Source of the DNA: an uncultured Algibacter sp.
GTDB lineage: Bacteria > Bacteroidota > Bacteroidia > Flavobacteriales > Flavobacteriaceae
Reading direction: 5' to 3'
DNA: 64,000 nt
Assembly (NCBI RefSeq): GCF_947487575.1
Contig: NZ_CANKXG010000001.1
Location: 62,001 to 126,000, forward strand
Of the stretch, positions 24,783-39,111 are shown one piece after another (the first letter of the stretch is position 1; each line of letters begins with the position of its first letter). Both the position numbers and the translations under genes were made by a program. The notes under the pieces are model-generated. The model did no database searches, was not told where the DNA came from, and was given only the letters and a program-made list of their open reading frames with translations.

Positions 24783-25175
24783 ATGAAACCATTACACATG
24801 AAGATTAGTTTTTTAATCCTTTTTTCTTTTTTATTAACTACTACATATTCTTATTCTCAACAGGGAAATGTAGAAATAAATCAAGATAAACATATTACTG
24901 TTTTATTGGATTTGAAAAAGAAGATGAATAAAAACGAAACCAGTTATGAACGTTACAAAATACAAGTATATTCTGGTAATCGTTCTGGTGCTTACAACGC
25001 TCAAAAGGAATTTAGTAGTTCATTTGGAGATTGGTATCCTTCTATGCAATACGAAACTCCTAATTTTAAAATTTGGGCAGGAAACTTTAGAACACGTTTG
25101 GAAGCAGATAGAGCTTTAAAGAGAATTAAAAGAAAGTTTCCAAATGCATTTATTTTTAAGCCAAAGAAAAAATAA
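24783..25175 (+). CDS. Small exported SPOR-domain protein
   Basis: This 130-residue exported protein carries a C-terminal SPOR domain (about residues 57-128: YKIQVYSGNRSGAYNAQKEF, then FKIWAGNFRTRLEADRALKR). SPOR domains bind denuded glycan strands of septal peptidoglycan, so a role at the division site or cell wall is likely. The signal peptide is MKISFLILFSFLLTTTYSYS, preceded by five residues (MKPLH). The second Met at 24798 is therefore an equally good or better start. It is a monocistronic gene divergent from the act operon and convergent with the PAP2-like gene. Confidence 0.85.
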   Translation: MKPLHMKISFLILFSFLLTTTYSYSQQGNVEINQDKHITVLLDLKKKMNKNETSYERYKIQVYSGNRSGAYNAQKEFSSSFGDWYPSMQYETPNFKIWAGNFRTRLEADRALKRIKRKFPNAFIFKPKKK

Positions 25176-25193
25176 ATAGCAGTGCATCTAATC

Positions 25194-26057
25194 TTAACCC
25201 TTACTTTGGGTAGTTTTCAGGTTATAATATAACTTTTTAGATATAAATAAGATTAATGGAGCCACAATTATTCCGCCAAAAACATCAATTAAATAATGGG
25301 CTTTAATATAAACTGTTGAAAGAAAAAGAAGTATTGTAATAGGAAGGGCTATTTTAAAAAATATTGGAATTGTTTTTTTAGAAATAATTAAAATGATTAA
25401 TGAAATCCCTACATGCGAACTTGGGAAAGCACCAGTTGGCTGCTCTCCATTTTCTTGAATAAAATGCATCACTTTATCAAAAAAATAGGCCGTTGGTACT
25501 TGACTGTCTGGATTTGAAAAATAAAATTGAGGCCCTTCAGACGGTACTAATCCAAAAAGAAAATAAAATAAATACAAGGAAGATGTTAATAAGAAAAAAT
25601 CTCTATTAAAACTTGGTTTATTTTTAAAATAGACGCACAAAACAAAACCTATTATAATTAAATAAAAAGAAAAATAACCAAAATACATAAGTTCACTAAA
25701 AAACAAACTATTAAAATACTCTGAAAACCTTAAGCTAGGCTGAAAACCAAATAGAGCAGTTTCATAATCAATTAATAGTGGATCTAGATTATTAAAAAAT
25801 AGCTTATTATAAAAAACAGTTTCTGAGTAAAAGTAACCACTAAATATTACGGGGTATATATCTCTTAAAAATGATAGTATTTTAAACTTATACTTTGCAC
25901 TAAAAAAAATTAATCCAATAGATAAAATGATAATATAAAATCTAGTTAGTATTAATTGATTAAAGTTTAAAACTTCATTTCTGGAAAAGAATAATAATAA
26001 GGTTGTAATGATTACAAAACCAAAAAAAACAATATCAACTCTTTTAAAAAAACGCAT
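25194..26057 (-). CDS. PAP2-superfamily membrane enzyme, possible sphingolipid head-group transferase
   Basis: This 287-residue integral membrane protein has about six to eight helices and the PAP2-superfamily catalytic motifs: C2-like GAFPSSHVG (near residue 215) and C3-like KAHYLIDVFGG (near 255), which supply the His/His/Asp catalytic set. I could not find the C1 motif (KxxxxxxRP) of phosphatidate phosphatases. That is also true of inositol-phosphorylceramide-synthase-type members, which move a phospho-head group onto ceramide. A GPQFYF segment precedes the catalytic part. It is the last gene of a four-gene run that starts with serine palmitoyltransferase, so a head-group transferase or a phosphatase acting on a sphingolipid intermediate are the leading options. 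Confidence 0.75.
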   Translation of the reverse strand: MRFFKRVDIVFFGFVIITTLLLFFSRNEVLNFNQLILTRFYIIILSIGLIFFSAKYKFKILSFLRDIYPVIFSGYFYSETVFYNKLFFNNLDPLLIDYETALFGFQPSLRFSEYFNSLFFSELMYFGYFSFYLIIIGFVLCVYFKNKPSFNRDFFLLTSSLYLFYFLFGLVPSEGPQFYFSNPDSQVPTAYFFDKVMHFIQENGEQPTGAFPSSHVGISLIILIISKKTIPIFFKIALPITILLFLSTVYIKAHYLIDVFGGIIVAPLILFISKKLYYNLKTTQSKG

Positions 26058-26096
26058 AAAATTTCGAAATATTTTTGTTGTGTATTAACAAAAAAA

Positions 26097-27071
26097 TTAA
26101 TGAATAATTTCTTCTAAGGTATGCTTAGCTTTAAAACCAATCTCTTGTTTTATTTTACTTGCAGAACACCTCCAATTAATCGACGTAATCTCTTTAGCTT
26201 TTTCAATACTATTTAAAGCATTTTTTATTTTAAAATTTTTCTCTAAAAATTGATTTATATAAGCTACCGAATAAACTATACCCTTTGGAATTCTAAATTT
26301 TAATTTTAATTCCTTTTTTAATGCTAAAGCAACAATTTCGTAAACCGAAGCTAAAGTATATTCATTACCATCTGAGAGATTATAAATTTGATTTTCCTTG
26401 CTATGTTTATTAGCCAAAAATATTGCTGTAGAAATATCGTCGGCATGTACAAATGATAAAAGCTGTTTGGGGCTAGCTGTATAAATAGCCATTCGTTTCT
26501 TTACAATTGAAACTAAATCTTTATAATCATTAGTGCCTTGACCAAAAACTGCTGTAGGCCTTATAATTAAATAACTTAAACCCGAATTAATGACTTCTTT
26601 TTCTGCTAATAATTTACTTTTGCCATAGTTAGTAATAGGATTTTCAGGCATGTTTTCCACAATATCTTCTAAACTCACAGCACTTCCTGGTCCCAATGCA
26701 GCTAAACTACTTGTATAAATAAATCTTCCTGTTAATAACTGATTTGTTTTAAGTACTGCACATAAATTTTTAGTTATCTCTGTATTAAACCTATAATAAT
26801 CTTCATTAAAAAAACAAGACGTAACACCTGCATTATGAATAACGGTATCAAAAACAGGAGCGTCTGAGAGTGCCTGATTTATAGTTTCTTCTGAATTAAA
26901 ATCGACATAAATCTCAGTATAATTTAAATGATTTATTCTCTGGGTATTACTAGTTTTCCGTAATGCAATGAAAACCTCGAAATGTTGTTGTATTGCTTGT
27001 TCTACGATATACTTTCCTATGAAACCTGTTGCACCAGTAATTAGAATCTTTTTAGGACGAGTACTAGACAT
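26097..27071 (-). CDS. Extended-SDR NAD(P)-dependent reductase/epimerase, candidate ketosphinganine or ketoceramide reductase
   Basis: This is a 324-residue extended short-chain dehydrogenase. The N-terminal Rossmann motif is GATGFIG (residues about 12-18). The catalytic Ser is in YTSSLAALG, and the YxxxK pair is YGKSK near 150. LIIRPTAVFGQG and SFVHADDIS are typical of the family. The gene begins 4 bp after the acyltransferase stop and follows serine palmitoyltransferase, so reduction of the 3-keto group of the sphingoid base or ceramide is the most economical role. This matches the bacterial scheme in which an epimerase-like SDR (CerR) works in ceramide synthesis. A sugar nucleotide epimerase is the alternative, but no sugar pathway genes are nearby. 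Confidence 0.8.
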   Translation of the reverse strand: MSSTRPKKILITGATGFIGKYIVEQAIQQHFEVFIALRKTSNTQRINHLNYTEIYVDFNSEETINQALSDAPVFDTVIHNAGVTSCFFNEDYYRFNTEITKNLCAVLKTNQLLTGRFIYTSSLAALGPGSAVSLEDIVENMPENPITNYGKSKLLAEKEVINSGLSYLIIRPTAVFGQGTNDYKDLVSIVKKRMAIYTASPKQLLSFVHADDISTAIFLANKHSKENQIYNLSDGNEYTLASVYEIVALALKKELKLKFRIPKGIVYSVAYINQFLEKNFKIKNALNSIEKAKEITSINWRCSASKIKQEIGFKAKHTLEEIIH

Positions 27072-27075
27072 AAAG

Positions 27076-28197
27076 TCAAATGTTTTTTATGTAACAGCGC
27101 CTTCTTTTATGCAATTCGGCATCAAAATACTTCCACAATGATTGTACTTGAACATTGTCTTCTAATTCAATATTAGTTTCTATATGCTTAATTCCAAAAT
27201 CTCTGGCTTCTCTATACAAAGTATCAATCATTACTACACTAACGCCTTTGTCTCTGTATCCCTCTTTAACAGCAACGAGATAAAGATCTAAAATATCATT
27301 TGATTTTAAAGATTTCAATAAATGATACCATCCGAATGGAAACAATTTTCCTTTAGCTTTTTGTAGAGCCTTAGTAAAAGAAGGTAGTGTAACACCAATA
27401 CCAACAATAGCATCATCCTTATCAACTATAATACTAATGAGCTCTTTTTTTACAAAACCAAAGTAATTTTTACCGTAGTATTCTATTTGTTCTTTATTTA
27501 GAGTTGTATAACCATATAAATCTTTATAAGTATCATTGATTAATGAAAAAAGGTCTGGGATATATTGCTTAAGCTCTTTTTTAGTCTTAATTTCTAATGG
27601 CCGTAAACCATATTTACGCTGAACATATTTTGATATTTTTTGAATCTTTTCAGGAACTTCTGGGTTTATTTTAAATGTATATTCCACCCAATCAACACTT
27701 TTTTCAAATCCAAATTTTTCAATGTGCTTTGGATAATACTCATAATTGTAAAGCGTAGCCATTGTACTTAATCGATCAAATCCTTTAACAAGCATACCTT
27801 GTCTGTCTAAATCAGTAAACCCAAATGGACCATGAACTTGAGCCATGTTTTTTTCTTTCAACCAATTTGTTGCAGTTTGCATCAATGCCTGTGAAACATC
27901 AAAATCATCTATAAAATCAAAAAAACCAAACCTCCCAATTTTGGAGTCAGAATTTTTTAATTCATTAGAATTTATAATAGCGCCAATTCTACCTACAACC
28001 TTATCTCCTTTATAAGCTAACCAGTATGCAGATTCACAAATTTTATGTGCTGGGTTTTTACCAACAGTTAATGTGGAGCGCTCATCAAAATCTAAAGGGA
28101 AAGCTATATTACTGTTGTCAGTATATAAAGAAATATAAAATTTAATGAAAGTATTTAAATCACGTTTACTTTCTACCTTTTTTATTGATACAGACAT
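27076..28197 (-). CDS. GNAT-fold acyltransferase, candidate bacterial ceramide synthase
   Basis: This 373-residue soluble protein has an acyl-CoA N-acyltransferase (GNAT) fold. There are an N-terminal half with YWLAYKGDKVVGRIGAIIN (residues about 58-78) and a C-terminal GNAT core with LDLYLVAVKEGYRDKGVSVV (about 305-325), where the R-x-x-G-V/A cofactor loop is seen. It begins directly after the serine palmitoyltransferase stop and is followed 4 bp later by an SDR. In bacterial sphingolipid clusters the N-acylation step is done by a GNAT-like enzyme (bCerS), so acylation of the sphingoid base is the most likely role. Similar proteins are sometimes labelled GTP cyclohydrolase; nothing in the sequence supports that label. 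Orthology to characterised bCerS was not tested. Confidence 0.72.
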   Translation of the reverse strand: MSVSIKKVESKRDLNTFIKFYISLYTDNSNIAFPLDFDERSTLTVGKNPAHKICESAYWLAYKGDKVVGRIGAIINSNELKNSDSKIGRFGFFDFIDDFDVSQALMQTATNWLKEKNMAQVHGPFGFTDLDRQGMLVKGFDRLSTMATLYNYEYYPKHIEKFGFEKSVDWVEYTFKINPEVPEKIQKISKYVQRKYGLRPLEIKTKKELKQYIPDLFSLINDTYKDLYGYTTLNKEQIEYYGKNYFGFVKKELISIIVDKDDAIVGIGVTLPSFTKALQKAKGKLFPFGWYHLLKSLKSNDILDLYLVAVKEGYRDKGVSVVMIDTLYREARDFGIKHIETNIELEDNVQVQSLWKYFDAELHKRRRCYIKNI

Positions 28198-29400
28198 CTA
28201 CATTATTGATTGTTTAGAAAAATGTTCAATAGCTTTTGCAACTTCAGTTACAGCGAATAAAACTTGTTCTTTATTGTGAGCAGAAGTAAGTGAAAAACGT
28301 AAAAGAGAATCAGAGTCTTTAACAGCTGGAGACACAACAGGATTTACATAAACACCATTTTCAAAAAGCATTTTTGCTACTTTAAATGTTTTTTCACTAT
28401 TTCTAATATAAACAGGAATTATAGGGGTTTCGGTTTCACCAATATCTAACCCAAATTCTCTCATTTTTTCTATTGCATAATGAGTATTTTCCCAAAGTTT
28501 TTCGTTAAAACTATTGTCAGTTCTCATAATTTTCAATGCTGCTAAAGCACTTGCAACTGATGCAGGAGGTAAGCTAGCACTAAACATAAATGATCGAGAA
28601 GCATGAGCCAAATACTCAATCATATCGGCATCTCCAGCAACAAATCCTCCTACTGATGCTAATGATTTACTAAATGTACCTCCAATAAGGTCAACTTCTT
28701 TAGAAACATTAAAATGTGATGCCGTACCAGAACCATTTTCCCCTATTACACCAATGGCGTGAGCACAATCTACCATAGTTATAGCATCGTGTTTTTTAGC
28801 AACTTCTACAATTTTATCTAATTTAGCAATATCACCATCCATTGAAAAGATACCATCTGTAACAATTAACTTTTTAGAACCTTCAACACTAGGTAAAGCC
28901 AATTTTTTCTGTAAATCTTCTATATTATTATGTTTGTATTTGATTCGCTTGGCATAACTTAATTGGCAGCCATCAATAATAGAAGCATGATTTAATTCAT
29001 CTATAAAAATACTGTCATCTTTTCCAGTTAAAGCAGGAATTACACCTAAGTTTACTTGAAAACCAGTTGGAAAAACTATTGCAGCTTCTTGCTTTAAAAA
29101 ATCTTTTAATGCATCTTCTAACTCTCTATGAAGGCTAAGTGTACCATTCATAAAACGGCTACCAGTGCAAGACGTACCATATTTAGTTATAGCATCTTGA
29201 GCAGCCTTTTTAATTTCTGGGTGATTATTTAGTCCTAAATAATTATTTGAACCAAACATTAAAACTTTCTTATCACCAAAAAATGCGACATCCGTTTGTG
29301 GAGACGATACTTCTTTAAAAAAAGGATATAAATCTCTAGATTTCAAAAAATGTGTCATTTTTGTAAGCCCGCTCTTTTCGATAAAACTATATTTACCCAT
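28198..29400 (-). CDS. spt: Serine palmitoyltransferase (alpha-oxoamine synthase family)
   Basis: This PLP enzyme condenses L-serine with a long acyl-CoA to give a 3-keto sphingoid base, the first step of sphingolipid synthesis. The 400-residue protein has the alpha-oxoamine synthase landmarks: SNNYLGLNNHPEI, GSRFMNGT, DELNHASIIDGC, the PLP Asp in MVDCAHAIGVIG, and the Schiff-base Lys in GGTFSKSLASVGGF near residue 243. The GTFSKS-type lysine motif and the N terminus resemble Bacteroidota SPT. Glycine C-acetyltransferase and AONS are close relatives and cannot be excluded by motif alone. The tight neighbours, a GNAT acyltransferase, an SDR and a PAP2-like enzyme, favour SPT over biotin or threonine metabolism. 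Confidence 0.87.
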   Translation of the reverse strand: MGKYSFIEKSGLTKMTHFLKSRDLYPFFKEVSSPQTDVAFFGDKKVLMFGSNNYLGLNNHPEIKKAAQDAITKYGTSCTGSRFMNGTLSLHRELEDALKDFLKQEAAIVFPTGFQVNLGVIPALTGKDDSIFIDELNHASIIDGCQLSYAKRIKYKHNNIEDLQKKLALPSVEGSKKLIVTDGIFSMDGDIAKLDKIVEVAKKHDAITMVDCAHAIGVIGENGSGTASHFNVSKEVDLIGGTFSKSLASVGGFVAGDADMIEYLAHASRSFMFSASLPPASVASALAALKIMRTDNSFNEKLWENTHYAIEKMREFGLDIGETETPIIPVYIRNSEKTFKVAKMLFENGVYVNPVVSPAVKDSDSLLRFSLTSAHNKEQVLFAVTEVAKAIEHFSKQSIM

Positions 29401-29509
29401 CTATATTATTTTTGATACCATCTAACAATGATAATAATTATTTATCAAATAACTCACTAATCATAGCTAGACTAGTCATTTATTTAATGAGTTTACTCTT
29501 ACTTTGTCC

Positions 29510-32017
29510 TTAAAAACTTACCTCAATTCTTAATTTAACACCTCCTTTTACAGAAATTTCATCAAAAATTGGGCTTGAATTTATTCTTCTTACATATTCA
29601 ATTCGTAATACTTTCATAATATTACTAATTCCTATCCCCACTTCCATATAAGGTTCTTTAGGTAATTCTATTAAACCTACTGGTAATTTAAAGAATTCGT
29701 CATGTCCATCTCTTAATTTACCATAAAATGCTTTAAACGAAAGCGATTCCCTTATGTTTAAAGATGATAATAAAGGCAATTTATTAAATAAAAAGCCTCC
29801 GCCATTAAAACTTGTGTGCAAATTTGCAAAAACATCTGACGAAAAAGATGTAGGATTTAGTAAATTATAATTAAATCTTGCTAAACCTATGTTCTGATTT
29901 CCACTAGGGTTATTTAATATTGGATATGGAACTTTACCTATTATGTAACCCGTATCTAAAAACATTTTAACAAATCCAGACCCTACTAAAAACTTTTTCT
30001 TCATGGAAGCATTTAATCTAGCATAATATGCTGAAAATTTACTAGCACTCCCTGTAATTTTATTATGACCAATCTCAGCAGTGAAATGATAAACCGGTTT
30101 TATTGAACCATAATATATTCTTGAAAAGAATTGTTGATCAAAATTTCTAGCTTTAGAATACCTCAAATCAAATAAAACGCCTTGGGATCTAAAACCTTTT
30201 ACATTGCTTGAGTTATGTATGAGTCTATTAAATTCGTTTTCTTCGAAAGTATCATAAAAAGGCCTAATTAAATAGCTAGCATTTTCATTGGCTTGATAGG
30301 TTAAAGAAACATCAATATGCTTTTGTTTTAGCATATTGAAATTTAATCTATTTTTATCACTAAAAACTGAAAGCACATTTCCACCACCTCTAGAATAAGG
30401 ATTTTCTTGAACAAACTCAATATACCTACTTTGTGCAATGGTTCTAAAATCATCAAAATGATTTATTCCTATTACAGTCCGCTTTTCTGTTGGTAATAAA
30501 TATTTTGCATTTATTCCATATTTAAAACCTTTATCTTTTAAACCATAACCAACATACCCACCTATTGTATATTTATCAGACATTTTTTGACTTGTTCGAA
30601 AAGGCAATGAAAAACGACTACCTTCAATTCCATTTTTAATATACAAATCGAAATATGGTCCAAAATCAAATTTATTTAAATTGTAATACCCTGTTAGAGT
30701 CATAGTTGCGAAACGATCAAGAAACTTAATTGAATTATTCTTTTTAAGACTTCTAATACCCTTAATTGCATTTGCCTCAAGTGAATCTAGAACTGTTTCA
30801 TCTCCAAGTTTTGATAAGGCAGAATTGTAAGGAATCATGGCCTCCAAAGAATCAACCAATTTCTTAGAAGATTTAAAATCAAAATTATAATCGCTATACT
30901 TTTGATTTTTTTGTACTAAAAAGTGTTTTGATTTTTTCTTTTTAGAACCAGTAAAAGACATTGTTGTATTTGTTTTTTGAGATTTAATCACCCAATGAAC
31001 ACTATCTGGTTTTTGATAATTTATCTCAACTTCTAAAGATTTAATAAAGTTTACATTAGCTTCAACTGGAATTGCTGCTTCTATTTTTGTTAAAGCAAAA
31101 GATTCTGAATCTACCCAAAATTCGCCATCAAAAGCCACACTCTTTTCGTTCTTTGGGTAATACTGAAACTGATACTGTTTAACACCATCAACCATTGAAC
31201 TGTCAGCTAAATATAGATGATAATAAGATTTATAATCACTAGTAATAGGGCTTTGAAAGCTTCTACCCAATAAATCTATATTTTCATCATAAAAATTGAT
31301 GTTTTGTGTTATTTTTTGATTTATAGTGGTTTTAATTAAACCATTTAATTGCTCTAATGTCCCTTCTTGCTCTTCATAAATATTTTTTGTAATATCTATG
31401 TTTTCATCCTTATCTATACGATGCTTAAACCCTTCTTTACTTAGTAGAATAGGCATCATTACTGTAGAATCACTATCTTTAAGAAAGGAGTCTTTAAAAT
31501 TTTTAAATCGCCTTTTATTTAACACCTCTTTTTGAAGATTTGCTAAATACACAGATAACAGAGCCGTTTCATTATACTGAACTTTCCTCACGTTAGCAGG
31601 ATCATTTTTCTTTTTATTACGAATAATCTTTCGCATAAGTCTGTCGGTATAAGGGTCTGCCTTACCGCGTATTACTACTGCATTTAACTGACTTGATTCT
31701 GGCTTTAAATAAATTACAGCATTATTTTTTAAGTCCTTTACAGCTATTATTTTTGTTGCATATCCTAAATAGCTAAAAACAAGAGAATCTTTTTTTGTTA
31801 CTCTTTTTTTTCTAATACTATAGTTTCCATCAATATCAGAAATCACCCCAATTGTTGTATTCTTAAAAAATACATTTACAAAAGCAATGCTAGAATTATC
31901 TTCAGTATCTTTAACAGTTCCAGTAAATTCTTGTCCAAATAATATATTGGAAGAAAAGGAAATTGTTAAAATAATGATTAATATATAACAATTTTTTTTA
32001 TTAACTTTTTGGCTCAT
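29510..32017 (-). CDS. DUF5686 outer-membrane protein with carboxypeptidase-regulatory-like domain
   Basis: This 835-residue exported protein has a signal peptide (LIIILTISFSSNILFG), a carboxypeptidase-regulatory-like domain at about 29-110 (FTGTVKDTEDNSSIAFVNV, SDIDGNYSI), and a long DUF5686 region with many beta-strands ending in an aromatic-type C-terminus (KGGVKLRIEVSF). Such proteins are abundant in Bacteroidota and probably form outer-membrane barrels. The TonB box and plug of receptors are absent. It overlaps the upstream DUF2147 gene by 17 bp and lies 109 bp upstream of the serine palmitoyltransferase gene on the same strand. A part in delivering or placing the sphingolipid in the outer membrane is a speculation that the order alone suggests. 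Confidence 0.85.
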   Translation of the reverse strand: MSQKVNKKNCYILIIILTISFSSNILFGQEFTGTVKDTEDNSSIAFVNVFFKNTTIGVISDIDGNYSIRKKRVTKKDSLVFSYLGYATKIIAVKDLKNNAVIYLKPESSQLNAVVIRGKADPYTDRLMRKIIRNKKKNDPANVRKVQYNETALLSVYLANLQKEVLNKRRFKNFKDSFLKDSDSTVMMPILLSKEGFKHRIDKDENIDITKNIYEEQEGTLEQLNGLIKTTINQKITQNINFYDENIDLLGRSFQSPITSDYKSYYHLYLADSSMVDGVKQYQFQYYPKNEKSVAFDGEFWVDSESFALTKIEAAIPVEANVNFIKSLEVEINYQKPDSVHWVIKSQKTNTTMSFTGSKKKKSKHFLVQKNQKYSDYNFDFKSSKKLVDSLEAMIPYNSALSKLGDETVLDSLEANAIKGIRSLKKNNSIKFLDRFATMTLTGYYNLNKFDFGPYFDLYIKNGIEGSRFSLPFRTSQKMSDKYTIGGYVGYGLKDKGFKYGINAKYLLPTEKRTVIGINHFDDFRTIAQSRYIEFVQENPYSRGGGNVLSVFSDKNRLNFNMLKQKHIDVSLTYQANENASYLIRPFYDTFEENEFNRLIHNSSNVKGFRSQGVLFDLRYSKARNFDQQFFSRIYYGSIKPVYHFTAEIGHNKITGSASKFSAYYARLNASMKKKFLVGSGFVKMFLDTGYIIGKVPYPILNNPSGNQNIGLARFNYNLLNPTSFSSDVFANLHTSFNGGGFLFNKLPLLSSLNIRESLSFKAFYGKLRDGHDEFFKLPVGLIELPKEPYMEVGIGISNIMKVLRIEYVRRINSSPIFDEISVKGGVKLRIEVSF

Positions 32018-32474
32018 CTAGTTTTTCTAGCTTTATCCTTTTAAACAATATATCATCCCATAAAAAAGCCCAATAGCCTGTTGCCTTTATAGTATCTTTA
32101 CTTTGTAATTTAACTACTCCTCTATATGTTCTGTCTGCAATTGGGTCGTAAATTTTTCCTTGATTCCATTTTAAATTTCCTGCATACTTAAAATGGTACA
32201 TTACTTTTATACCTTTTTTTGGTTTATTCTTCTCCCAAGTTCCATTGTCTCTTTGAAAACCAACCAAATAACCTACAGGTAAATTTTTATTATCAAGTTG
32301 AACGTTTACAACCATATTATCACCCTCATCGCAAGATTTCCAATAACCAACAAGGTCTTCCTTTTGTTGACTAAAAGATAACATTCCTATTAAAGACATA
32401 AGAGATACTATTTTTATCTTATTGCAAAAAAGAGAAATTACTTCTTTTCTTTTTACCTTCATTATACAATTCAA
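32001..32474 (-). CDS. DUF2147-like small exported protein
   Basis: This 157-residue protein has a membrane or signal segment near the start (IKIVSLMSLIGMLSFSQQ). A domain similar to the DUF2147 family follows, with LVGYWKSCDEG at the beginning and GKIYDPIADRTYRGVVKL, then ATGYWAFLWDDILFKR near the end. Two in-frame starts are possible (32474 or 32462); the later one gives a basic MKVKRKEV start before the hydrophobic segment. It overlaps the downstream DUF5686 gene by 17 bp, so the two are almost certainly co-expressed. No function is known for the family. Confidence 0.8.
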   Translation of the reverse strand: MNCIMKVKRKEVISLFCNKIKIVSLMSLIGMLSFSQQKEDLVGYWKSCDEGDNMVVNVQLDNKNLPVGYLVGFQRDNGTWEKNKPKKGIKVMYHFKYAGNLKWNQGKIYDPIADRTYRGVVKLQSKDTIKATGYWAFLWDDILFKRIKLEKLDEPKS

Positions 32475-32679
32475 CTTAAAAAAATCTGAATATCTAATAT
32501 TGTTTTCTTCTTTAACAAACTAATTCTATAATCAAAGAATTTATTTAATTTGTAAAAAAGTTGTTTCCCTATTTTTACAAATCTGCAAAAATAATAAAAT
32601 CTTAACAAAAGTAAAAAGAAAAGAAACGTACCTTTTTACCTCTCACCATTAATTACTTTTACTTATTAATGTGCAAAAA

Positions 32680-32703
32680 AAAGCAACCAAATTGGGCTGC
32701 TTT
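32680..32703 (-). terminator. Intrinsic terminator after infB
   Basis: AAAGCAACC and GGCTGCTTT pair with one G-U wobble. On the minus strand the stem is followed by eight T residues. It lies about 20 bp after the infB stop and ends the rimP-nusA-infB operon. Confidence 0.8.
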
Positions 32704-32722
32704 AATTACTTTATAAACACAA

Positions 32723-35455
32723 TTATTTAAGCTTCTTTTTAACTTCCACTTCATGGAAAGCTTCAATTATATCACCTTCTTTAATATCGTTATAGTTCTT
32801 AATTTGCATACCACAATCATATCCTTTTGATACTTCTTTGGCATCATCTTTAAATCGTTTTAACGAAGCTAATTCACCTGTGTAAACGACTACTCCATCA
32901 CGAATTAATCTAATCCCTGAGTTTCTAAGTATCTTACCGTTAGTTACCATACAACCTGCAATAGTTCCAATTTTAGATACTTTAAACATTTCTCTAATTT
33001 CAGCGGTACCGGTAACTTCTTCTTTAAGTTCAGGAGATAACATGCCTTCCATAGCATCTTTAAGATCATTAATAGCGTCGTATATAATAGAATATGTTCT
33101 GATATCAATTTCTTCCTTATCAGCAATCATTCTTGCATTTCCAACAGGACGCACATTAAACCCAACAATAATAGCATCAGAAGCCGATGCTAATAACACA
33201 TCACTTTCAGTAATGGCACCAACACCTTTGTGCAAGATATTAACTTGAATTTCTTCAGTAGATAATTTCTGGAATGAATCTGTTAATGCTTCCACAGAAC
33301 CATCCACATCACCTTTAAGAATGATATTTAACTCTTGGAAATCACCAAGTGCAATACGACGACCTATTTCATCTAATGTAATATGGCGTTGTGTTCTAAC
33401 CGATTGCTCACGTTGTAATTGCGCTCTTTTGGTTGCAATTTGTTTTGCTTCACGTTCATCTTGAAACACATTAAACTTATCACCCGCTTGTGGTGCACCA
33501 TCTAAACCAAGTATTGAAACTGGAGTAGAAGGACCTGCAGCAGTAACATCGTTACCACGCTCATCATGCATCGCTTTTACTTTACCACTATGTTGACCAG
33601 CAAGTACATAATCTCCAACTTTTAAAGTTCCTGCTTGTACAAGAATAGTTGATACATAACCACGTCCTTTATCTAAGAATGCTTCTACAACTGTACCAAT
33701 AGCTGGTTTATCTGGATTTGCTTTAAGCTCTAATAACTCTGCTTCAAGCAACACTTTTTCTAATAACTCTTTAACACCAGTACCCATTTTAGCAGAAATA
33801 TCATGAGACTGAACTTTTCCTCCCCAATCTTCAACTAATAAATTCATATTAGCTAAACCTTCTTTAATTTTTTCTGGGTTTGCTGCTGGTAAATCTATTT
33901 TATTAATAGCGAATACAATAGGAACTCCTGCTGCCTGAGCATGTGAAATAGCTTCTTTGGTTTGCGGCATAATATCATCATCTGCTGCTGCTACAATAAT
34001 TGCTATATCTGTTACTTGAGCACCACGAGCACGCATAGCTGTAAAGGCCTCATGACCTGGCGTATCAAGGAATGCTATTTTTTGCCCGTTTTCTAGCTGA
34101 ACACCATAGGCACCAATGTGCTGTGTGATTCCACCAGACTCTCCAGCAATTACATTTTCCTCACGGATATAATCCAAGAGCGATGTTTTACCATGATCTA
34201 CGTGCCCCATTACCGTAACAATTGGTGCTCGAGATTTTAAATCTTCTGGTTTATCTTGAATTTCTTCAATAGATTCTTCAATATCAGCAGTTACAAATTC
34301 TACTTGATATCCAAATTCTTCAGCAACTATAGATAATGTTTCAGCATCTAAACGCTGATTCATGGTTACCATCATACCAAGAGACATACAAGCTGAAATA
34401 ATTTCAGTAACACCAACATCCATCATGGTAGCCATTTCGCTAGCCGTAACAAACTCTGTTACTTTAATAATTTTACTTTCTGCTTCCTCGATTTGTTGAT
34501 CGATTTCTGTCTGCTCTCTATGTTTATCTCTTTTATCTCTTCTATTTTTTGCGCCTCTACCTTTATTAGATTTACCTTGAAGTTTCTCAAGTGTTTCTCG
34601 CACTTGTTTTTTTACATCTTCTTCACTAGGCTCTTCCTTTGGAGCATTTCTACGTCCTTGTCCTGGTTTCCCTCTAAATCTATCATTTCCACCTGCTCTA
34701 TTTCCACCGCGGTTATCTTGAGGAGCTCCAGCTTTACTAATTCTGCGACGTTTTTTCTTATTACCATCACCAACTTTAGCAGCAGGTTTCTTTTCTTCTT
34801 TTTTCTTTTTTGGCTTATTGAATTTAGATAAATCTATTTTATCTCCAGCTATTTTAGGTCCTGTAAGTTTTTTATACTGTGTAGTTACTTTTTCATCAGG
34901 AACAACTTCTCCTTCATCATTTAAAATCTCTTTTTTAGACTTTTCTTGAGGTTCAGTTTTCTTTGATACAGCAGCTGGTTTTTCTTCAACTTTAGGTATT
35001 TCCGTTTTTACAACTTCCTCCTTAGCAATTTTTACAACTGTTTCTGCAACCTTTTTTGTTTCCGCTGGCTTTTCTTCAACTTTCTTTTTTGAGTCTAAAT
35101 CTATTTTTCCAACAGTTTTAGGACCTGAAAGTTCTGCTGAGGCTTTTACAATTTCCTCTTGTCTAGCTTTTTCTCGGGCTTCTTGTGCTTTTTGCTTAGC
35201 TTCTAATTCTTTTTCACGTTTAATGCGCAAATCTTCCTTTTCTTTCAGCTTTGCTTCGCTTACTTCTTGAGACTTTACTTTCTTATTTGCATCCGTTTCA
35301 AATTCATCTGAAAGAAGATTATAAGTTTCTTCAGAAATTTTTGTAGTGGGACGCTTTTCTATATCTACGCCTTTAGAATCTAAAAATTCTACAGCACGAT
35401 CTAGAGAGATGTTAAGCTCACGTAATACTTTATTTAATCTAATTGTTTCAGCCAT
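32723..35455 (-). CDS. infB: Translation initiation factor IF-2
   Basis: IF-2 is the GTPase that brings initiator tRNA to the 30S subunit and promotes subunit joining. The 910-residue protein has an N-terminal IF2N domain ([17 protein letters not shown]), a long Lys/Glu/Ala-rich linker (about 60-340), and then the G domain with GHVDHGKTS (about 415-423), DTPGHEAF and NKID. Domains II, III and IV follow ([13 protein letters not shown] to the C terminus). This is the standard length for Bacteroidota. It is the third gene of the rimP-nusA-infB operon. Confidence 0.97.
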
Positions 35456-39037: not shown

Positions 39038-39038
39038 G

Positions 39039-39111
39039 TTGGCCTACTAGGGCTCGAACCTAGACTCTTTGGTACCAAAAACCAACGTGTTGCCAGTTAC
39101 ACCATAGGCCA
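39039..39111 (-). tRNA. tRNA-Gln (anticodon TTG)
   Basis: The minus strand folds into a 73-nt cloverleaf: acceptor TGGCCTA pairs with TAGGCCA, discriminator A. The anticodon stem TTGGT/ACCAA holds the loop TTTTGGT with anticodon TTG, and the T arm contains GGTTCGAGC. The 3' CCA is not encoded. It is an isolated tRNA with its own promoter and a terminator. Confidence 0.95.

Follow-up and report, generated by a model that had tools for sequence, protein, structure and literature searches.

Which lipid is made by a tight run of four minus-strand genes in an uncultured Algibacter sp. is the question raised by the stretch of 64,000 nucleotides analyzed here (assembly GCF_947487575.1, contig NZ_CANKXG010000001.1, positions 62,001 to 126,000; hereafter the window). 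An initial annotation, made from the sequence alone, had read the run as a complete sphingolipid pathway consisting of a serine palmitoyltransferase (SPT), a GNAT-fold acyltransferase, an extended short-chain dehydrogenase/reductase (SDR) and a PAP2-superfamily enzyme. The four open reading frames were recovered in the window sequence with gaps of 0, 4 and 39 bp, and their Pfam families agreed with these labels (Table 1). The run is not a chance arrangement, since its genes are of good length, are intact and have homologs that adjoin one another in other genomes. Judging from the sequences, a phosphate-headed sphingolipid is very probably the product of the block in which it lies, next to a sulfonolipid pathway of the same genome. 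On balance, we favor the reading of this block as a horizontally gained island making ceramide phosphoethanolamine by means of SPT, GNAT, SDR and PAP2, with phosphatidylethanolamine (PE) as the donor. The genomes and loci used for comparison are designated by G and L numbers.

Identity of the first enzyme

The best PDB match of the window SPT was the Sphingobacterium SPT (8guh/3a2b, 447 bits), as compared with up to 284 bits for chains labelled AONS or KBL and 239 and 229 bits for the cysteate-C-fatty acyltransferase (CFAT) chains 28eh and 7u7h. Lys245, Asn52, His138 and Arg368 are present as the equivalents of Lys251, Asn53, His140 and Arg376 (SulA numbering, PMC9304779); the same set also occurs in the SulA, KBL and AONS rows and hence does not discriminate. 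A discriminator has been proposed in the same paper, namely Lys281 of SulA versus Ala in Spt, and the window SPT has Ala275 at the aligned position. Ala was found there in all 30 other SPT-locus rows and in E. coli Spt, Lys in all 37 SulA-like rows from the family (Flavobacteriaceae) loci, and Asn and Thr in the KBL-like and AONS-like rows of the own genome, respectively. NCBIfam NF047600 (SPT) was the best family for the window protein (551 bits), although the score lies under the cut-off of 640 bits, which counts against the assignment; two relatives from metagenome-assembled genomes (MAGs), L312 (549 bits) and L336 (603 bits), likewise fall under it. A tree also separates the window SPT from SulA, KBL and AONS. 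By its PDB scores, discriminator residue and tree position, the first enzyme is thus a true serine palmitoyltransferase at the sequence level, as had been proposed, and not a KBL, AONS or cysteate enzyme; the same three lines favor SPT over the glycine C-acetyltransferase or AONS that the initial annotation had named as the alternatives. It would form 3-ketosphinganine by condensation of L-serine and an acyl thioester.

Acyltransferase and reductase

In PMC9386255, E. coli BL21 yghO (ECD_02850) and ECD_02852 are listed together with the Caulobacter acyltransferase CC_1154 and reductase CC_1164. Homology to bCerS (bacterial ceramide synthase) and CerR was examined through the E. coli BL21 proteins, rather than the Caulobacter proteins themselves; yghO and the spt-proximal epimerase gene were taken from the BL21 record, and the latter was equated with ECD_02852 by position. 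YghO matched the window GNAT at 140 bits (phmmer, E 3.9e-42). The BL21 CerR-like protein matched the window SDR at 94 bits (E 1e-23; 26% over 324 columns). The SDR carries the motifs GATGFIG (NAD-binding) and YGKSK (YxxxK). CerR is periplasmic in Caulobacter (PMC11087976); a simple scan of the window SDR for hydrophobic segments found none. The roles first suggested for both proteins are borne out by these homologies, and with the SPT identity they point to a sphingolipid pathway. The GNAT would N-acylate 3-ketosphinganine, and the CerR-like SDR would reduce the ketone to give dihydroceramide.

Acylation and reduction may also take place in the reverse order, with the GNAT acting on sphinganine, as has been proposed for B. 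thetaiotaomicron BT_0972, which turns 3-ketosphinganine into sphinganine (PMC9278070). The window SDR, however, is of the extended CerR type, and deletion of cerR in Caulobacter leads to accumulation of oxidised ceramide (PMC11087976); the gene order SPT-GNAT-SDR is suggestive in the same direction. Reduction before N-acylation is accordingly considered rather unlikely, though it keeps some weight.

The window genes resemble the ceramide genes of Caulobacter crescentus and E. coli BL21 in having homologous SPT, GNAT and extended SDR (equivalences according to PMC9386255), but differ from them by their tight run and by a GNAT that stands on a branch apart from YghO in the tree. In this tree of 83 rows, the window GNAT joins that of G270 (support 100/100) and then those of G426 and G761, all SPT-linked; the latter join has a support of 82/86, which is a caveat on the grouping. 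The GNAT family was found in 55 of 60 family genomes, the own genome included, and 54 GNATs from this search form a separate clade (100/99) that excludes the window GNAT. Among the 56 family GNAT loci that were fetched, 37 carry an alpha-oxoamine synthase (AOS), every one with the SulA-type Lys, and no match to the window-type SDR or PAP2 was found in the 56. That the window GNAT arose recently by duplication of the copy in the capnine locus of the own genome was considered and rejected, as it groups with G270, G426 and G761 and not with the clade of the capnine-locus copy.

The PAP2 protein and its candidate product

The fourth gene product is predicted to be a PE-dependent ceramide phosphoethanolamine synthase. 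As a multi-pass PAP2_3 protein, it would transfer phosphoethanolamine from PE to the 1-hydroxyl of ceramide by means of a His/Asp pair, and the products would be ceramide phosphoethanolamine and diacylglycerol. PAP2 phosphatases are characterized by the motifs C1 (KxxxxxxRP) and C3 (SRxxxxxHxxxD). No R-P dipeptide occurs anywhere in the window protein, so the absence of the C1 motif, already remarked on in the initial annotation, holds; the protein carries P-S-S-H and H-Y-x-x-D, and its C3 region reads TVYxxxHYxxD, without the Ser-Arg of the phosphatases. The eukaryotic SMS/SMSr and Aur1 synthases are PAP2-like transferases with a His-Asp pair, and AUR1, when aligned, has the same Y...HYxxD form as the window protein.

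The window protein is the single PAP2_3 above the cut-off in its genome. In a tree of 25 PAP2 rows, it falls in a clade of seven, together with proteins from G131, from an Acidobacteria MAG and a Verrucomicrobia MAG and three from family f11, here called Bacteroidaceae-type (other groups are named by the identity of their SPT to that of named contigs); GP and PSSHV are common to all seven. In G620, G731 and G772, the f11 copy directly adjoins a CerR-like SDR (29-33%), and so does a copy in G613 that has GPQFY and PSSHV and lies outside the tree. The order SPT-GNAT-SDR-PAP2 is repeated in the Acidobacteria MAG (L336), and L350 has SPT-SDR-PAP2 with the GNAT on the opposite strand.

In vesicles of B. 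thetaiotaomicron, PE-ceramide ranks with the most abundant sphingolipids (PMC8791184), and one study reports it from every Bacteroides species that was tested (PMC10191378). B. thetaiotaomicron is reported to have no match to a Drosophila EPC synthase (PMC8791184), and deletion of BT_1522 leaves PE-ceramide unaltered (PMC9246714); the SDR-linked PAP2 is therefore a natural candidate for the PE-ceramide gene. In the literature searched, mostly at the level of listings, no gene named for PE-ceramide synthesis in Bacteroides was found. G613, with an SPT 96% identical to the Bacteroides acidifaciens enzyme, holds both this PAP2 type and the one linked to inositol genes (see below), which fits the production of both inositol phosphoceramide and PE-ceramide by Bacteroides (PMC8791184, PMC10191378).

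Several observations weigh against a ceramide phosphoethanolamine synthase. The clade has a support of 93/87 and long branches. A PAP2 relative (55%) in G131 overlaps a GNAT gene (L278:7050-9040), and among the AOS of G131 at E up to 1e-30 only KBL-like and SulA-like proteins and no SPT were found, so that ceramide may be dispensable for the PAP2 protein. With a profile built from the clade, AUR1 (27 bits) scored no better than the PgpB-type YodM (25 bits). A phylum-wide search gave some PAP2 match in 63 of 395 genomes, the own genome included, mostly at 23-32%, and no SPT was seen in the 16 phylum PAP2 loci fetched from those matches. The G131 copy and the profile scores speak for an alternative in which the first three genes make dihydroceramide and the PAP2 protein is a phospholipid hydrolase or phosphatase, or a transferase of head groups to another lipid; so do distant PAP2_3 relatives whose loci lack SPT, four of which have SDR and CPBP genes as neighbors. 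The missing C1 motif and C3 Ser-Arg, the AUR1-like Y...HYxxD form and the position next to a CerR-like SDR in the four genomes of f11, and next to SPT and SDR in MAGs from two further phyla, argue against this alternative, and a hydrolase or other-lipid role is judged unlikely. Transfer of a head group by PAP2, which the initial annotation had put forward as its own inference, thereby gains support from gene context and is the least certain step of the pathway.

The four loci just mentioned (L279, L283, L289 and L292) are clusters of PAP2_3, CPBP (Rce1-like) and SDR genes in distant Bacteroidota. In L109 (G128), genes of the same three kinds occur together with SPT-GNAT.

An Aur1-type inositol phosphorylceramide synthase was also considered. 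The window protein belongs to the same Pfam family (PF14378), and a mixed profile of 15 PAP2 sequences matched AUR1 at E 2e-27, although 10 of its 15 rows are of the inositol type; the profile of the window clade matched AUR1 weakly, and no SMS chain was among its seven matches at E up to 10. In the 25-row tree, the ten PAP2_3 proteins from inositol operons group together (100/100), and they carry PAAPPWY and PSLH. PPWY and PSLH are present in AUR1 as well, and the window protein reads GPQFY and FPSSHV in their place. Furthermore, the own genome, which is 99.88% complete, gave no match to inositol-1-phosphate synthase (MIPS, PF01658), and its one CDP-alcohol transferase has PssA as the best NCBIfam match (94 bits; cut-off 107), which leaves no candidate for a phosphatidylinositol synthase. 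The phosphatidylinositol donor that had first been suggested for testing is thus not sustained, an inositol head group was rejected on these grounds and on the position of the PAP2 protein outside the Aur1-like inositol clade, and an Aur1-type enzyme is very improbable. A phosphonate head group was likewise rejected for the own genome, in which no phosphoenolpyruvate (PEP) mutase scored over the cut-off.

Head-group genes in other serine palmitoyltransferase loci

SPT, searched at E up to 1e-105, was found in 6 of 397 family genomes (the own genome included and neither of two congeners) and in 30 of 395 genomes of the phylum, again with the own genome. Thirty SPT loci were fetched, 5 from the family and 25 from the phylum. 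A GNAT match lies beside SPT in 25 of the 30; the loci without it (L121, L122, L126-L128) are the Bacteroidaceae-type ones and G727. An SDR match follows in the same run in 13 loci, L109 included, and is on the opposite strand in 4. On the conservation beside SPT in other Flavobacteriaceae that the initial annotation had asked for, the result is mixed: the gene set is rare in the window's own family, but the GNAT stands beside SPT in most of the fetched loci of the phylum.

The genes that follow this core differ. G234 and G387 have SPT-GNAT-SDR with PIP synthase, MIPS, PgpA and GtrA, and G234 has a PAP2_3 gene in the same stretch as its inositol genes. PAP2_3 and the SPT-GNAT-SDR run are common to the window and to the BT_1522-1526 inositol phosphoceramide operon of B. 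thetaiotaomicron together with the SPT loci that have genes of that kind (L108, L112, L113, L119), from which the window run differs in lacking MIPS, PIP synthase, PgpA and GtrA and in having a PAP2 protein of another clade and motif. A further counterpart is the island of G270 (L107), with the order DUF2147-DUF5686-SPT-GNAT-SDR as in the window (SPT 78%, DUF5686 59%, DUF2147 71%). In G270, PAP2 is replaced by genes for a LysE-like protein, PEP mutase (415 bits; cut-off 320), phosphonopyruvate decarboxylase (495 bits; cut-off 313), a cytidylyltransferase-aminotransferase fusion, whose aminotransferase families score under the NCBIfam cut-off, and a CDP-alcohol transferase. The stretch with SPT-GNAT-SDR and these phosphonate genes (L107:8747-14314) is a candidate ceramide aminoethylphosphonate pathway, as predicted from its gene families.

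Taken together, the loci of G234, G387 and G270 indicate that the ceramide core stays constant and the head-group set changes. Tentatively, and with somewhat more doubt than confidence, we propose that the PAP2 clade of the window is a bacterial ceramide phosphoethanolamine synthase and that the sphingolipid islands of Bacteroidota are modular, with one ceramide core and exchangeable head-group cassettes, in genomes that also keep the sulfonolipid pathway. If so, the cassettes would be a PAP2 gene for the ethanolamine head group, a PAP2 gene combined with inositol genes, and a phosphonate set leading to ceramide aminoethylphosphonate.

A CDP-alcohol transferase-like gene lies near SPT in L115:5042-5746 (G398) and L123:573-1520 (G575), in genomes without a MIPS match, and is perhaps another head-group route. 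A DUF4833 protein is encoded at L108:5308-5880, with relatives at L312:3374-3892 and in L114, L116, L117, L119 and L120 (inositol-type or SPT loci).

Sulfonolipid genes in the same genome

The C9 locus of the own genome (L017:5197-8919) encodes the CapA cysteate synthase (642 bits; cut-off 600), a SulA-like protein matching CFAT 28eh at 714 bits, and a convergent GNAT that is a candidate sulfonolipid N-acyltransferase. Like the window, this capnine pathway combines an AOS with a GNAT, a paralog 38% identical to the window GNAT, but it includes a cysteate synthase, and its discriminator residue is Lys. Sulfonates of this kind have no C1 hydroxyl. A capnine-type product of the window cluster itself, as might be supposed from GNATs of the same family near SulA-like genes in 37 of the 56 fetched family loci, can be dismissed as extremely improbable and was rejected, given Ala rather than Lys at the SulA position, the separate CapA, CFAT and GNAT locus, and a sulfonate that would offer a PAP2 transferase no C1 hydroxyl.

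Synthesis of sulfonolipids and of sphingolipids may be mutually exclusive in Bacteroidota according to a review (PMC10191378). At the gene level this is not upheld: of the six family genomes with an SPT, five (G000, G270, G128, G234 and G318) were found to have a Lys-type SulA too, the exception being G387. Genes of both kinds can thus coexist in one genome.

Organization and probable insertion site of the island

The run of four is the lower part of an island of six genes (25194-32474). The initial annotation was right about the run but drew the unit too narrowly, as the DUF5686 and DUF2147 genes belong to the same block (Table 1).

Table 1. Features of the island, in positions of the window
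Feature	Position	Strand	Basis
Serine palmitoyltransferase (SPT), 400 aa	28198..29400	-	Aminotran_1_2; structure matches, Ala275, NF047600 best family
GNAT-fold N-acyltransferase, bCerS homolog, 373 aa	27076..28197	-	Acetyltransf_1; YghO homology, tree
Extended SDR, CerR-like keto-reductase, 324 aa	26097..27071	-	Epimerase; BL21 CerR-like homology, motifs
PAP2_3 membrane protein, candidate ceramide phosphoethanolamine synthase, 287 aa	25194..26057	-	PF14378, 62 bits; clade placement
DUF5686 + CarbopepD_reg_2 protein, putative outer-membrane partner	29510..32017	-	Pfam; DUF5686 in other SPT loci
DUF2147 protein, common to the G270 island	32001..32474	-	Pfam; 71% relative at the head of the corresponding L107 run
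Inserted block between infB-like gene (32723-35455) and SPOR gene (24783-25175)	25176..32722	.	Empty site in a congener

Within or next to 11 of the 30 fetched SPT loci there is a DUF5686/CarbopepD_reg gene (L107, L108, L110, L112-L114, L116, L117, L119, L120 and L123) in addition to the window, and the 56 GNAT/SulA loci gave just two partial DUF5686 matches, both in L069. On a tree of 30 rows, SPT/MIPS-linked DUF5686 required 5 changes, as against a shuffled mean of 10.3; a single dedicated sphingolipid clade is therefore not supported, and the linkage is clustered but has more than one origin. A role of DUF5686 in moving the sphingolipid to the outer membrane is possible.

The infB-like and SPOR genes of the congener G265 lie about 76 bp apart. 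These two genes are directly adjacent beside Act-type genes in 8 of 10 family genomes, and in one of the two exceptions infB was outside the examined stretch; infB and Act are putative labels given by the look of the sequences. G270 is among the eight, its own island lying elsewhere in the chromosome. As the flanking genes are adjacent in a congener and in most family genomes, the block is most simply explained as a horizontal gain rather than by loss. Base composition is weak evidence for a foreign origin: the mean GC of the six block genes is 0.29, versus 0.34 for 34 other window genes, but 7 of these 34 are no higher in GC than the highest gene of the block. A search for flanking repeats or a mobile-element signature at the island ends gave only short imperfect repeats. 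No acyl carrier protein (ACP) or acyl-ACP synthetase gene is present within the run, the search for them having been confined to it. A Bacteroidota-type promoter pattern had 5 matches in the window (6.9 expected) and none within the island. The one tRNA of the window is at 39038-39111.

A named Labilibaculum MAG has SPT (65%), GNAT (53%) and SDR (37%) in the same order on a contig that ends soon after. In the congener G044, an unrelated open reading frame lies between the infB-like and SPOR genes, and insertions into this gap may be recurrent. This frame (L219:8832-9869) encodes 345 aa without a Pfam or NCBIfam match.

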